Of a stretch of 31,412 nucleotides of DNA, positions 13,648-31,412 are shown piece by piece; positions within the stretch are counted from its first letter, which is position 1; each line of letters begins with the position of its first letter. Both the position numbers and the translations under genes were made by a program. This DNA comes from a virus. The stretch lies in the IMG/VR virus record IMGVR_UViG_3300019124_000100, positions 1-31,412 of that record; one strand, given 5' to 3'. Under the pieces are notes generated by a model that was given only the letters and a program-made list of their open reading frames with translations, made no database searches and was not told the origin of the DNA.

Positions 13648-14556
13648 ATGGATAAGAAGTACGGTGAATTCGTTGGCGTAGACAGCCTGCATTACGCGCT
13701 GGTCTCCAAGGACGATGAAACGGGATATGTTGCCGGGACACCAGAGTATTTGGCGCCCTCCGCCGAAATCTCGGGCGAGCCGGAAACGAACACCAACACG
13801 ACATACTACGACAACCAGCCGGGCAACAACTACGTGACTGAAGGCATTACCACGCTGAACATTACGGTATCCAACGTACCGGCGGCGCTCGCTGCGAAAC
13901 TGCTCGGGAAGGCGTACGACGAAGCGACAGGGCGGGTGTACGATAGCGGCCTCCCGAACCCGCCGGATGTGGCCATTGGGTTCCGGTTCAACATGGGCAG
14001 AAACGATTACCGGTATTACTGGTACTTGAAAGGCACGTTTAGCGCTGGTGCGGAGGAAGCCGCTTCGAAATCGAGCGACGTGGATGTCCGCACGTACCAG
14101 TTGACCTTCACAGCGATTGCGACAGCCTATCAGTGGAATATCGGCGGGGAGATGAAGCCGCTGAAGCGTGTCTTTGCCGATACAGCCGATCCGGCATTCG
14201 ATTCGGCAGGGTGGTTCGCTCAAGTTCAAACGCCTGATGTGGCCGCGGCGCCGGCGGCGCTCACCCTCTCGAGCATTTCGCCGGCAGACGGTTCGACAAC
14301 GGCGGCACGAAACACACCGATCGTACTCACGTTCAACAATAAAATTGCCAAGGAAGCGATCACGCTCATCAACGGTACCACCGGCGATGTAGTGGCCGTT
14401 TCCCGGTCGTGGGACGCTGCGGGGAAGGTGCTTACGCTCACCCCGTCGGGCCAGCTGGCGGCTACCACGAAGTACATTGTATCGGTTGCAGGGGTCGTCG
14501 ATGTGTATGGCCAGGCTTTGGAAGCAACCGGCAAAGACTTCACAACGGTCGCGTAA
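13648..14556 (+). CDS. Major tail (tube) protein with C-terminal Ig-like domain
   Basis: The first 200 residues have the phage tail-tube pattern: YGEFVGVDSLHYALVSKDDE, a GEPETNTNTTYYDN loop, FRFNMGRNDYRYYWYLKGTF and YQLTFTAIATAY. From about residue 206 a bacterial Ig-like (Big_5-type) domain follows: LSSISPADGSTTAARNTPIV, then strands ending in TKYIVSVAGVVDVYGQAL. Such domains decorate the outside of the tail and are thought to help weak adhesion to cell surfaces. The gene has GAGGGG about 10 nt upstream and ends in a strong terminator, consistent with the need for many copies of this subunit. Confidence 0.88.
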   Translation: MDKKYGEFVGVDSLHYALVSKDDETGYVAGTPEYLAPSAEISGEPETNTNTTYYDNQPGNNYVTEGITTLNITVSNVPAALAAKLLGKAYDEATGRVYDSGLPNPPDVAIGFRFNMGRNDYRYYWYLKGTFSAGAEEAASKSSDVDVRTYQLTFTAIATAYQWNIGGEMKPLKRVFADTADPAFDSAGWFAQVQTPDVAAAPAALTLSSISPADGSTTAARNTPIVLTFNNKIAKEAITLINGTTGDVVAVSRSWDAAGKVLTLTPSGQLAATTKYIVSVAGVVDVYGQALEATGKDFTTVA

Positions 14557-26871: not shown

Positions 26872-27109
26872 ATTTCGGAATTATATTATAGAAATCACGA
26901 AGCATCTCGAGGGCTTCCGCCTTTGATATAATTTCAGTTTCGACCAATCCTCCATGGTTGGATTCTTTGTACCAAATCTGAATATTTTTCAAACGGGGTA
27001 ATTCGGAATACCATATGGCCGCTTGCTCAGGGTTGGTTGTTACAAGATCCACCTTGGAATATCCCTCAACGGTTAGAATACATACAAAAATTAATTGTTG
27101 CTCCCCCAT
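26870..27109 (-). CDS. Small protein of unknown function (79 aa)
   Basis: ATG 27109 is chosen because AGGGAGG lies about 12 nt upstream on the minus strand and the -10 box at 27151-27156 would leave an earlier TTG (27142) almost without a leader. The product is a compact alpha/beta sequence: LIFVCILTVEGYSKVDLVTT, NPEQAAIWYSEL, a beta stretch IQIWYKE, and SKAEALEMLRDFYNI. No family recognised. AT-rich, convergent with the amidase gene, with its own extended -10 promoter, so it is probably expressed in the lysogen. Confidence 0.65.
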   Translation of the reverse strand: MGEQQLIFVCILTVEGYSKVDLVTTNPEQAAIWYSELPRLKNIQIWYKESNHGGLVETEIISKAEALEMLRDFYNIIPK

Positions 27110-27150
27110 TATTAAATACGGCCTCCCTTTATTGATATACAATAAATGGA

Positions 27151-27159
27151 ATTATAACA
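27151..27159 (-). promoter_or_regulatory. Extended -10 promoter for the 79-aa minus-strand gene
   Basis: On the minus strand the sequence reads TGTTATAAT, a perfect extended -10 (TGnTATAAT), about 42 bp before ATG 27109. The -35 region is weak, which is common with an extended -10. Confidence 0.65.
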
Positions 27160-27176
27160 TAATGGGGGCGTTTCAT

Positions 27177-27398
27177 TCACCAAAAATCAGCGGAACTTAC
27201 GTCAGGATCAATCTCCCGAAGTGCACGAATTACTTTGGACCTTGTGGTTGTTCGCGGAATATATCCCTTGTCGTTACAAAGGTCAGAAACGGTATTCGGG
27301 CTTAACCCGGTGTGAGCCTCCAGCCATTTTTGAGACACCCCGTTATCATCCATCCATTTACCCAAACGGGTCCTCGGTTTCATCCAAGATAAGAACAC
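27177..27398 (-). CDS. Small helix-turn-helix (XRE/Cro-type) regulator, 73 aa
   Basis: The product RTRLGKWMDDNGVSQKWLEA followed by HTGLSPNTVSDLCND is a Cro/CI-type helix-turn-helix with little else. GTG 27398 follows AGAGGTG on the minus strand; ATG at residue 6 is an alternative. It lies upstream of, and in line with, the 79-aa gene and divergent from the FtsK module. It may control that module or bind the nearby repeat array. Its distance from the usual lysogeny region (left, outside the window) makes it unlikely to be the main phage repressor. Confidence 0.75.
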   Translation of the reverse strand: MFLSWMKPRTRLGKWMDDNGVSQKWLEAHTGLSPNTVSDLCNDKGYIPRTTTRSKVIRALREIDPDVSSADFW

Positions 27399-27510
27399 GT
27401 TATCACCTCTACATAATCAGAATGGACAATCTATTAGAATTCCATACCCTCAAATGTGTCGGAAACTAAGAATAATGGACAACCAGACTGACGTACGCTT
27501 TATCATCAAG

Positions 27511-27611
27511 CGGAATATTCCGGACATCATTCCAACCCCACTTCCGATCTATTGTTCCGAGCCTACCTTCCGGCAATCCTTCCGCGGCGGCATTCGCCAC
27601 GGAATATTCCG
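27511..27611 (+). repeat. Iteron-like array of TTCC(G) motifs every 12-13 bp
   Basis: TTCC or TTCCG starts at 27518, 27530, 27542, 27555, 27568, 27580 and 27607, with a degenerate TTCG at 27593: spacing 12, 12, 13, 13, 12, 13, 14. The array is bounded by two identical 12-bp palindromes, CGGAATATTCCG, at 27511-27522 and 27600-27611. The spacing is not a multiple of three, so it is not a protein repeat. It lies about 100 bp before the FtsK-type gene. It is a candidate replication origin, transfer origin or operator. Confidence 0.7.
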
Positions 27612-27705
27612 AACCGCGTAGGATCGCGCCTTCAGCCTTGTACAAAGTCATTCCGAGCCGGAGGAACTATCCTATCGGATACCAAGGGAAAAGGGGTGGT
27701 ACGCG

Positions 27706-29022
27706 TTGTTTCTTGAAGTCCTCGGCTGCGTGGCCGCCGGCGGACTGCTCGCGTATACGGCAATCGAGAAGAGCGGCACGGCGACAGACGCGGCAAAAAT
27801 CCAGCGCGTGGCAAAGAACTGCGGCCTGTACATCAACGAAGCCGGCAAGCAACGGACGATCCAGCCGCTTCGGCGGACGCATTACCCGTGGGGCGTCGAA
27901 TACGTCTTCCGGATACCGCTCGGCTTATCGTTCGACGACTTCGTCCGGAAGAAGCAACACCTCGAGGACGGCCTGAACCACAAACGCGGCTGGCTCGACT
28001 TGACGATCGACGACCTCCGCACGCTGCGTCTTGGCCCTGACATCTTGCAGCAGCTCCGGGACCTCATGACCGTAGCGAAGCACCGAAAGGAGATCCTGAT
28101 GGATTACGACGGTACGCTGCGGATCCGGATCTACCGGGAACCATTGTCTACGCTCGTGCTGTTTGACGACGCAACTCTGGCTAGCTGCAGCGGGTGGAAG
28201 GTGCTAATCGGGGATAGCCGGGAGGGGAGGATATACCATGATTTTGACCAGATCCCGCATATCGTTGTCGCCGGCACAACGCGATACGGCAAATCGGTGT
28301 TTTTGAAAGGCGTCGTGACGACGCTCACCGCGCGCCAGCCGGCCGCGGCGCAGTTCACACTCCTGGACTTGAAAGGCGGGCTCGCGTTCAATCGATTCCG
28401 TGATCTGAGGCAGGTGGTCACGGTCGCATCGAACGTCTCGGAGAGCGTCACCGCGCTCCAGCGGATCGAGCTCGAGATGAAGGAGCGGCAGGCGCAACTT
28501 CTCGCCAAAGGTTTCGAGGACATTACGGAAGCGGGGATAACGGAGCGGCATTTCGTCGTCATCGACGAGGGCGCGGAGCTGGCAAGTGCCGGCGAGACGG
28601 ACCCGCAGCTGAAGAAGCTGAAAATCGATTGTGAGCGGATCGTCGCGGAGATCGCGCGGATCGGCGGCGGTCTCGGGTACCGACTCATCTTCGCAACACA
28701 GTATCCGACTGGCGACACGCTCCCGCGGCAGGTGAAGCAGAATTGTGACGCCCGCCTCTGCTTCCGTCTCCCAACGGAGACGGCGAGCCGCGTCGTCCTG
28801 GACGAAGCGGGCGCAGAGCAGCTGCCGCTCATCAAGGGGCGGGGTATTTACCGGACGGACCGGAAGCAGATTGTTCAGACGCCATATATCGAGAATGGTT
28901 TCATCGACAAAACGATTCGGCCGCATGTCGCGATCCGGCCGAGGAAGGAGGCACCGCATGCTCCTGCAGCAGAAGAAGCTCCAGCGGGAAGAAGCTATAC
29001 TCTCGTCATTGAAGAAGCTTGA
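27706..29022 (+). CDS. FtsK/SpoIIIE (TraC/Tra coupling-type) DNA translocase ATPase
   Basis: The start is TTG 27706, 6 nt after AAGGGGTGG. The 438-aa product begins with one membrane segment (FLEVLGCVAAGGLLAYTAI). It has an N-terminal alpha/beta domain and then the FtsK motor: Walker A GTTRYGKS (residues 190-197), the LLDLKGGLAFNRF motif, Walker B FVVIDEGAEL (287-288 DE) and RLIFATQYPTGDTLPRQVKQN. It ends in a linker and IEEA tail. It lacks the FtsK gamma domain. Such proteins pump double-stranded DNA or couple it to a transfer apparatus in integrative and plasmid elements. Its stop lies 65 bp inside the next gene. The role in a phage is unclear. Confidence 0.85.
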   Translation: MFLEVLGCVAAGGLLAYTAIEKSGTATDAAKIQRVAKNCGLYINEAGKQRTIQPLRRTHYPWGVEYVFRIPLGLSFDDFVRKKQHLEDGLNHKRGWLDLTIDDLRTLRLGPDILQQLRDLMTVAKHRKEILMDYDGTLRIRIYREPLSTLVLFDDATLASCSGWKVLIGDSREGRIYHDFDQIPHIVVAGTTRYGKSVFLKGVVTTLTARQPAAAQFTLLDLKGGLAFNRFRDLRQVVTVASNVSESVTALQRIELEMKERQAQLLAKGFEDITEAGITERHFVVIDEGAELASAGETDPQLKKLKIDCERIVAEIARIGGGLGYRLIFATQYPTGDTLPRQVKQNCDARLCFRLPTETASRVVLDEAGAEQLPLIKGRGIYRTDRKQIVQTPYIENGFIDKTIRPHVAIRPRKEAPHAPAAEEAPAGRSYTLVIEEA

Positions 29023-29581: not shown

Positions 29582-30049
29582 ATGCAGGTGACGATTGGAG
29601 TGAAGGGTGGGGAGAGGAAGGTGCTGTTCGAACCAGCGGCCGTGGCCGACGCCGCGACGCCGCTGATCGACAGCAGGCGAATCGATTCGAAGGTGCGCGC
29701 ATATCTCGGCCACGCTGTGCCGCTTCTGGCGGTCGCGGGGGTGGCACTTCAGGCATCGAGGGCGTCGGCGCACGAGGCGATCATGGCGATCGCTCCGGAG
29801 GCTGTGCCGGCGGTGGGCGGCGCACTGAAAGGTAAGATCATGCACGCATTCGATCCGCTGATCGACTTAATCGTGACGCTGTCGTATCCAGTGGCCGGGG
29901 TCATGATTGCCGGCGGTTGCCTATTTATCATGGTCGGAAGTCGTGATCGCGGGATGCAGCTCCTCCAGAATGCGGCGATTGGGTACATTTTGATGCAGCT
30001 GTCGCCATTGATGCTGGATTTATTAGTTGGAGTCGGAGAAGGCATTTAG
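29582..30049 (+). CDS. VirB2/TrbC-like small membrane protein (155 aa)
   Basis: ATG 29582 follows AAGGAGGG. After a hydrophilic N-terminus there is a hydrophobic segment (AVPLLAVAGVALQASRASAH), then two long membrane helices (LIVTLSYPVAGVMIAGGCLF and AAIGYILMQLSPLMLDLLVG). Between the two helices is a short polar loop GSRDRGMQ. This resembles small TrbC/VirB2-like pilin or channel proteins that accompany transfer ATPases. It is the last gene of the module and ends 9 bp before the TAA of the truncated spoVR frame. Assignment is tentative. Confidence 0.6.
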   Translation: MQVTIGVKGGERKVLFEPAAVADAATPLIDSRRIDSKVRAYLGHAVPLLAVAGVALQASRASAHEAIMAIAPEAVPAVGGALKGKIMHAFDPLIDLIVTLSYPVAGVMIAGGCLFIMVGSRDRGMQLLQNAAIGYILMQLSPLMLDLLVGVGEGI

Positions 30050-30057
30050 TCTTCATA

Positions 30058-30249
30058 TTACCGATGGTTTCTTTTGCCGAAGCTCCAGTGGCTGAACCGG
30101 GTCGGCATGCCGTACGCCCCGAACGTGTAAATGATGTCCGCGGGGCAAATTTCGTAGCGCATCGGGTAGAAATCAAGCCCGAAATTCCGCGCGATGTCCG
30201 TAATTTCTTCGATCGCCGCTTCCAGCTGCTTTTGTTCCTCTGCGAGCAT
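30058..30249 (-). pseudogene. spoVR: spoVR, 5' fragment interrupted by the prophage
   Basis: The 63-codon frame encodes the conserved beginning of SpoVR (about 465 residues when complete): [20 protein letters not shown] followed by [17 protein letters not shown]. This near-invariant stretch is easily recognised. After residue 59 the match ends and the frame closes with RNHR and TAA, which lie in prophage sequence. SpoVR acts in spore cortex formation in Bacillus subtilis; its enterobacterial relative is YcgB. The gene follows yhbH by 8 bp, as in the known prkA-yhbH-spoVR arrangement. The rest of spoVR should lie at the left end of the prophage. As it stands, no complete protein can be made. 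Confidence 0.9.
30060..30090. other. Right prophage/chromosome junction (attR region)
   Basis: Reading from the right on the minus strand, spoVR codons agree with the family through SFGK (AAA at 30073-30075) and then give RNHR and a stop. The crossover is therefore within or just right of about 30070-30090. The core sequence cannot be set without the left junction. Confidence 0.7.
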
Positions 30250-30257
30250 CGATTGGC

Positions 30258-31412
30258 TTACCCCCCCGCGGTCTCCTTTTTGCCGAAAAACGCCCGCAGC
30301 GCCTTCAGCACTTCGCCCTTCTCCTTAATGATGCTGTACATGAAGCCGGGCTCGCCGATGTTGCGGTACGCGGACATGAGCGTGCTGCTTCGGTTGTACT
30401 GGTTCACTTCGCCGTAGCCGAACAAATTGCACCGCTTCAGCAGCTCCTTGATGAGCTTCACGCAGCGCTCGTTGTCGCTCGTCAAATTGTCGCCGTCGGA
30501 GAAGTGGAACGGGTAAATGTTGTACTGCGACGGCGGATATTTCGTGTCGATTAGCTCGAGCGCCTTCTGGTACGCCGACGAGCAGATCGTGCCGCCGCTT
30601 TCGCCTTTCGTGAAAAACTCCTCTTCGGTGACGACCTTCGCTTCGGTGTGGTGGGCGATGAACACGATTTCGACGTGCTCGTATTTACGGCGCAGGAAGC
30701 GGGTCATCCAGAAGAAGAAGCTGCGCGCGCAGTACTTTTCGAAGGAGCCCATCGAGCCGCTCGTATCCATCATCGCGATGATGAGGGCGCTGGACTCCGG
30801 CTTTTGGATCGTCTCCCACGTCTTGAACCGCAGGTCGTCCGGCGTGATGCCGCCGAAGCCGCGCACGCCCTGCGTCGCGTTGCGCTTCAAGTTCTCGAGC
30901 AGCGTGCGCTTGCGGTCGATGTTGCTCATCATGCCCTTCTTGCGCACGTCGGTGAAGCGGATATGCTCCGTTTGGACGATCTGCTTCTCTTTCCGCTTCA
31001 GGTCCGGCAGCTCCCAATCCTCGAACAGGACGTTCTCGAGCTCCTCCATGTCGACTTCGGCCTCGTACACGTCGTCGCCGGGCTTGTCGCCGGCGCCGCC
31101 CTCGCCGCTGCCCTGCTGCGCCGGCTGCGGGTCGCGCCCGAGCACGTCGCCGACCTTGCTGTCTCCGTCGCCTTGGCCGACGTGCTTGCTCTTGGTGTAG
31201 TTGAAGCGGAAGCGGAATTCGTCGAGGCTCTTGATCGGAACCCGCACTTGCTTCCGGCCGTCCGACAGGATAATGCTTTCGTCGGACACGATGTCGGACA
31301 GGTTTCGTTTTAACGCGTCTTTCACGCGCTGCTGATGCCGGGATTGGTCTTCGTACCCTTTGCGGTGGAGCGACCAATCCTCCCGGGAAACGATAAATAA
31401 CGGCTCCGTCAT
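30258..31412 (-). CDS. yhbH: Sporulation protein YhbH (DUF444 family)
   Basis: The 384-aa frame starts with the typical [20 protein letters not shown] at the very edge of the window and is complete. It has a basic N-terminal region, a Gly/Asp-rich low-complexity linker ([20 protein letters not shown]) and a C-terminal von Willebrand A-like domain. That domain carries a MIDAS motif MMDTSGSMG and the following Thr/Asp residues (GGTICSS, HFSDGDN). YhbH is made in sporulation and starvation and is genetically linked to the PrkA kinase (compare enterobacterial YeaG/YeaH). GC content is high and matches a host chromosome. Confidence 0.95.

Follow-up and report, generated by a model that had tools for sequence, protein, structure and literature searches.

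The described systems closest to the locus analyzed here are the transfer origins (oriT) of the pheromone plasmids pAM373 and pAD1, where the relaxase is TraX, of the MOBC type (Francia and Clewell 2002 and Francia et al. 2013, via PMC12857230 and PMC5714925). With the phage locus they have in common 5- to 6-bp direct repeats at an 11- to 13-bp pitch, a CAAC and hairpin downstream, a relaxase composed of a winged helix-turn-helix (wHTH) and a PD-(D/E)XK nuclease, and an adjoining coupling-protein gene. According to a review, TraX carries its wHTH at the N terminus and binds 5 direct repeats located 70 to 120 bp from nic (PMC12857230). In the Clostridium perfringens plasmid pCW3, the coupling protein TcpA is FtsK related, as in the phage, and a wHTH protein (TcpK) binds oriT DNA; however, the relaxase TcpM is of the tyrosine-recombinase type, and TcpK is a separate wHTH protein with no nuclease (PMC6137059). 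Streptococcal TcpA-carrying integrative mobilizable elements likewise have an FtsK-like coupling gene just upstream of the relaxase gene and no complete type IV secretion system (T4SS), but they are not phages, the partners of TcpA are rolling-circle-type relaxases, and those elements with PF13814/MobC carry VirD4 instead of TcpA (PMC5357655). Among phages, a relaxase, a translocase, and membrane proteins are encoded together by Bacillus thuringiensis phage 0305phi8-36, a jumbo phage that differs in having the relaxase gene first and, in the part of the published account considered here, no described cis-acting array; deletion of this operon caused no growth defect (PMC4113786). The same gene set as that analyzed here was read in two Bacillus pumilus phages as remnants of plasmid replication and segregation (PMC9658697). 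No description of this cis-acting array in phages was found in the literature searched.

The window, by which we mean the whole 31,412-nucleotide stretch of IMG/VR record IMGVR_UViG_3300019124_000100, reads as a Paenibacillus-type prophage, with integrase, terminase, portal, capsid, tail, holin, and amidase genes followed by the module detailed in Table 1. We interpret the repeat array at the head of this module as the binding site of the Replic_Relax protein within a MOBC-type oriT-like site of a prophage, a reading to which we assign a probability of roughly 0.7. A DUF444 gene on the opposite strand (30058-31412) starts just after the module and is probably host DNA, so that the module here marks the right prophage end. 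In Geobacillus phage PK5.2 the module lies mid-genome, before a recombinase gene, and it is also found in Andromeda- and PM1-type siphoviruses, some of them probably lytic.

Table 1. Features of the module and its upstream region (window coordinates)
Feature	Position	Strand	Remarks
Cro/C1-type HTH protein, 73 aa	27177..27398	-	Pfam HTH_26 1.7e-5; divergent from operon
Conserved element AATAATGGACAA-N11-TACGCTTTATCA	27471..27508	+	Recurs in relatives as TAATGGACAA-N9-CATAnCnTTTAnCA
TTCC(G) half-site array	27511..27611	+	12-13 bp pitch; candidate relaxase binding site
Palindrome CGGAATATTCCG, left array end	27511..27522	.	Two back-to-back half-sites
Palindrome CGGAATATTCCG, right array end	27600..27611	.	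Second copy
Isolated TTCCG half-site	27651..27655	+	About a dozen bp 5' of hairpin; conserved
GGAAC + hairpin TATCC-TATC-GGATA	27663..27681	+	Covarying stem-loop; proposed part of nic region
GGGTGGTA, window form of conserved GTGG(C/T)G box	27694..27701	+	May double as ribosome-binding site here
FtsK/TcpA-like DNA translocase, 438 aa	27706..29022	+	Pfam FtsK_SpoIIIE 1.3e-17; proposed coupling ATPase
Replic_Relax protein, 203 aa	28958..29569	+	PF13814 3.9e-13; wHTH 1-75, PD-(D/E)XK 86-198
Membrane protein, 155 aa, VirB2/T4SS-pilin-like	29582..30049	+	Family profile matches

The first-pass annotation had described eight motifs spaced by 12, 12, 13, 13, 12, 13, and 14 bp between two identical palindromes, and direct reading of the window agrees exactly: TTCCG starts at 27518, TTCCA at 27530, TTCCG at 27542, 27555, 27568, and 27580, a degenerate TTCGC at 27593, and TTCCG at 27607, while both palindromes are CGGAATATTCCG, a sequence that occurs nowhere else in the window. 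It had also proposed a shuffling test of the spacing, and none of our 200 dinucleotide shuffles matched the array: when the best-scoring 6-mer chain was sought at 12- or 13-bp steps, with the motif left free, the array scored 16 versus 6.5 +/- 1.0 for shuffled sequence (maximum, 11), and with steps of 11 to 14 bp it scored 19 versus 11.1 +/- 1.6 (again 0/200). The array may be a protein-loading site, as the annotation had suggested. A mechanically called open reading frame across it (27466-27651, minus strand) was rejected as coding sequence, as it is unsupported and relatives align with gaps of 1 and 2 bases.

To place the array among relatives, 84 upstream regions were gathered from genome contigs, IMG/VR, and phage records via the downstream FtsK-like protein (individual loci are numbered with the prefix L), and exact 5-mer matches were pooled by lag over 71 nonredundant loci. 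Matches at lag 12 numbered 167 against 34.8 expected (z = 18) and those at lag 13 numbered 86 (z = 7), with harmonics at lags 24 and 37 to 38; random segments of the same loci gave 63 +/- 13 at lag 12 (maximum, 101), and the lag-12 matches upstream of the FtsK-like gene were concentrated 105 to 200 bp before its start. The array is conserved in relatives at the position where the annotation had suggested looking for it, before the FtsK-like gene, and the site is shared by numerous phages of Bacillus and Paenibacillus relatives. The case for conservation is built on the pooled test together with the close relatives, since many single distant loci failed to beat their own shuffles in per-locus chain scores; a clear array was not seen in several of the distant loci (L026, L040, L063, and L066). 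Relatives whose relaxase-like proteins are 63 to 79% identical have the same spacing, and both palindromes, at the corresponding position. Close relatives L003, L004, L006, and L021 retain the whole order of TAATGGACAA, CGGAAnnTTCCG, TTCC array, second inverted pair, TTCCG, AAC hairpin, and GGGTGG, and the left-end palindrome is kept in L003 and takes the form CGGAATGTTCCG in L006.

The letters of the half-site vary by lineage (TTCCG, TTCG, GTCG, or ATACC/ATGCC) at a constant pitch of 12 to 13 bp, as would be expected if the site were recognized by a protein that sits in rows and co-evolves with it. GTCG/TTCG was found in Geobacillus phage PK5.2, TTCG in L042 to L058, and ATACC/ATGCC in L076, L080 to L083, L090, and L093. 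In all 31 strong-array loci, the motif class fits residue 42 of the recognition helix, NNCC occurring with R or N and NNCG with Q or S. On the tree, this link comes down to no more than 3 changes, with 1 on well-supported branches, and it is not significant once relatedness is considered; it supports putative binding of the array by the relaxase-like protein but, with so few changes required, does not count as an independent test.

The first-pass annotation had correctly placed the array ahead of FtsK-type and replication-relaxation genes and near an HTH gene. In a profile search, the closest solved chains to the FtsK-like protein were those of a "DNA translocase coupling protein" (6o1z/6o1x; E 4.5e-35), making TcpA, the coupling ATPase of plasmid pCW3, its nearest solved relative, nearer than chromosomal FtsK (6.1e-25). 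The Replic_Relax match scored 50.3 bits against a curated cut-off of 25.3, and the AlphaFold2 model (pLDDT 96.7) shows a winged helix and, C-terminal to it, a PD-(D/E)XK nuclease; residues 1 to 76 of this predicted model match MarR-type wHTH proteins (Z up to 11.4), and Foldseek returned PD-(D/E)XK nucleases and nickases with weak E values. D123, E136, D138, and K149 were invariant in 63 Replic_Relax proteins. An hhalign comparison with the pAM373 MOBC relaxase gave an E value of 1.6e-6 over both wHTH and nuclease, aligning D...ExD with D...ExE, and on the strength of its modeled fold we consider the protein a candidate MOBC-type relaxase. In view of the nuclease domain with its invariant active site, the wHTH protein as an FtsK gamma-domain acting in trans (KOPS-like loading) was dropped as the main reading, and recruitment of the motor by the relaxase-like protein is possible. 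The relaxase gene begins, in a different frame, within the last 65 bp of the FtsK gene; relatives show similar overlaps, which suggest coupled translation. The third gene of the operon, present in 76/83 loci, belongs to a VirB2/T4SS-pilin-like family: of 27 members, 25 have a match to PF18895 T4SS_pilin (best 2e-5) and 12 to TrbC/VirB2 (best 1e-7), with the window's own protein falling below the cut-off (E 0.052).

Two parts downstream of the array, the isolated TTCCG and the conserved hairpin (stem-loop at 27668-27681), had been overlooked by the earlier annotation. The hairpin completes the element, beginning about 56 bp past the end of the array and 150 bp past its start. The isolated half-site repeats the array's own motif in 12/13 TTCC-type loci and 12/15 TTCG-type loci and usually differs from it in ATACC/ATGCC-type loci. 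Across loci, AAC is conserved before the stem and the loop is mostly TATC or TAC, while the stem letters are free to vary, with 35 different perfect stems in 63 loci. A stem of 5 bp or longer immediately preceded the GTGG[CT]-type box in 59 of the 66 loci that have this box, versus 9.8 expected from shuffles; for stems of 7 bp or longer, the corresponding figures were 21 and 0.8. An Rfam search of positions 27000 to 28000 gave no match, leaving the hairpin unexplained by any known RNA family. Some 20 relatives have a distinct AAGGAG-type ribosome-binding site for FtsK further downstream of the GTGG(C/T)G box; the box is therefore more than a ribosome-binding site, and its reading as that alone was dropped. 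In the window the two may coincide.

As a plasmid reference for the flanks of the hairpin, we used pAM373, in which 12-bp repeats (TATGCCTAATAG/TATGCCTAAAGG/TATGCTTAAAAG/TATACCTAAAGG) lie between the coupling-protein and relaxase genes; their TATGCC/TATACC motifs are of the same type as those of L076 and L082. A 14-column profile built from the phage hairpin flanks only (consensus, GTTTTTAGCGCAAC) was scanned on both plasmid strands, and its top site among 73,322 positions was CATTTTAGCGCAAC at 14469(-), in the same orientation as the array, at the center of the inverted repeat, and followed by the hairpin GGGGT-GAAT-ACCCC. Judging by its position, this stretch of pAM373 is probably the oriT reportedly mapped by Francia and Clewell 2002. 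The window itself has GGAAC before its hairpin, versus the CAAC-hairpin of the plasmid's inverted-repeat center. Three further enterococcal plasmids with such relaxases have 11-bp arrays upstream, and two of the three have CTCAAC followed by a hairpin or near-hairpin. The plasmid and phage sites also differ: in pAM373/pAD1 the hairpin sits inside an inverted repeat of about 140 bp, T4SS genes are present, and the coupling protein is TraG/VirD4-like, whereas the phage protein is FtsK/TcpA-like, and the outer palindromes and GTGG(C/T)G box are features of the phage. Since no inverted repeat of about 140 bp is present in window positions 27000 to 28200, we call the site oriT-like of MOBC type and leave it outside the pAM373/pAD1 oriT group.

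Some relatives of the module are on plasmids or phage-plasmids. L105 (pBEH6), L107 (a Paenibacillus sp. JNUCC32 plasmid), L108, and L109 are plasmids with Replic_Relax relaxase-like genes, and the last three have an 11- to 12-bp array. MOB-suite types all four as "non-mobilizable"; MOBC-type relaxases seem to be missed by this typing. As plasmids with the same gene pair are so classed by current tools, mobility surveys may undercount them.

From the computed features (array, conservation, hairpin covariation, protein folds, and the MOBC plasmid oriT match) we infer binding, nicking, and DNA export, which might proceed as follows. The winged helix of Replic_Relax would read the TTCCG half-sites, and many half-sites at a 12- to 13-bp pitch, closed by two inverted pairs, would gather the protein beside the hairpin. 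One strand would next be nicked by the PD-(D/E)XK domain close to the AAC-hairpin/GTGG(C/T)G segment. Uptake of the nicked DNA would fall to the FtsK/TcpA-like ATPase, and a role at the membrane to the pilin-like protein. Binding of the array by the relaxase-like protein appears very likely, and nicking near the hairpin is probable. No other secretion genes besides the pilin-like gene were found in the phage, so that cell-to-cell transfer would need a helper conjugative element, and such helped transfer is a tentative proposal, with less than even odds. Somewhat more doubtful still is the broader notion that many temperate and lytic Bacillota phages carry a working mobilization module (MOBC oriT, TcpA-like motor, relaxase, and pilin) by which genomes leave the cell capsid-free via the secretion system of a resident integrative and conjugative element or plasmid. 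For lytic phages with the module, conjugation would be an odd life style, which counts against our preferred reading, as does the normal growth of 0305phi8-36 after deletion of its similar operon (PMC4113786). Phages and conjugative elements are usually seen as separate routes of gene transfer, and an oriT-like site together with a nuclease, a motor, and a pilin-like gene in phages of many Bacillota would offer one element two exits from the cell. The site has sharp, testable parts (half-site, pitch, hairpin, and active-site residues), and its natural arrays with differing half-sites are a ready set for MOBC relaxase origin recognition.

The first-pass annotation had left three options, namely, an element origin, a transfer origin, or an operator. 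Of these, the transfer origin is best supported, by the MOBC relaxase fold, the lineage-specific motif at fixed pitch, and the match to the pAM373 oriT. An intracellular role in phage DNA replication or recombination, in which the relaxase-like nuclease would nick the circular genome at the hairpin (as a rolling-circle start or for concatemer resolution) and the FtsK-like motor would move phage DNA at the membrane with no conjugation, is kept in play by the siphovirus occurrences and by the presence of the module in phages that show no type IV secretion genes nearby, probably lytic ones included. The PHROGs label of the Replic_Relax family ("replication initiation") and the reported multifunctionality of some MOBC enzymes (review, PMC5714925) point the same way, but the pilin-like third gene and the TcpA-like motor fit DNA export better, and in 0305phi8-36 growth does not depend on such an operon (PMC4113786); we regard this role as unlikely.

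That the array and palindromes serve solely as an operator, on which the divergent Cro-like HTH protein (or the wHTH protein) represses the FtsK-Replic_Relax operon, is improbable. The site does form a leader flanked by divergent genes, 68/84 loci conserve the HTH gene, and the end units of the array are perfect palindromes; yet arrays or paired motifs persist at loci without this HTH gene (e.g., L080, L081, and L022 to L025), the motif is not fixed but changes along with the relaxase helix, and the covarying hairpin and plasmid oriT match are left unexplained. Because the site also lies in the operon leader, an operator role is retained as a possibility, and the site might combine a role as oriT with autoregulation by the relaxase. 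Centromeres with 12-bp iterons bound by wHTH proteins are known (TubR), and a partition site at which array, DNA-binding protein, and motor segregate an extrachromosomal prophage would accord with these, with the occurrence of plasmids and phage-plasmids among the relatives, and with the replication and segregation reading of the B. pumilus gene set (PMC9658697). The plasmid relatives, however, have separate ParM or ParA genes, and partition needs neither a conserved nuclease active site nor a nic-like hairpin, which makes this the case for which we see very little chance.

Regarding the binder, the earlier annotation had named both the replication-relaxation protein and the 73-aa HTH protein; the former is the likely binder, and the latter is a conserved neighbor that is missing in 16/84 loci (67 of its 68 homologues are on the opposite strand) and that may act as a regulator or as a relaxosome helper. 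By eye, the gene upstream of FtsK resembles a ribbon-helix-helix protein, the fold usual for such helpers, in L005, L022 to L025, L063, L066, L071, L073, L079, and L088, several of which are without a Cro-like HTH gene or clear array. Between the HTH gene and the array, TAATGGACAA-N9-CATAnCnTTTAnCA was found in many relatives, including L018, L019, L027, L061, L076, and L094; this element, the window form of which is given in Table 1, fits standard promoters poorly and may act as a promoter or as an operator bound by the HTH protein. The same interval of the window holds two direct copies of TGGACAA, 53 bp apart (27423-27429 and 27476-27482), which are possibly HTH operator sites.
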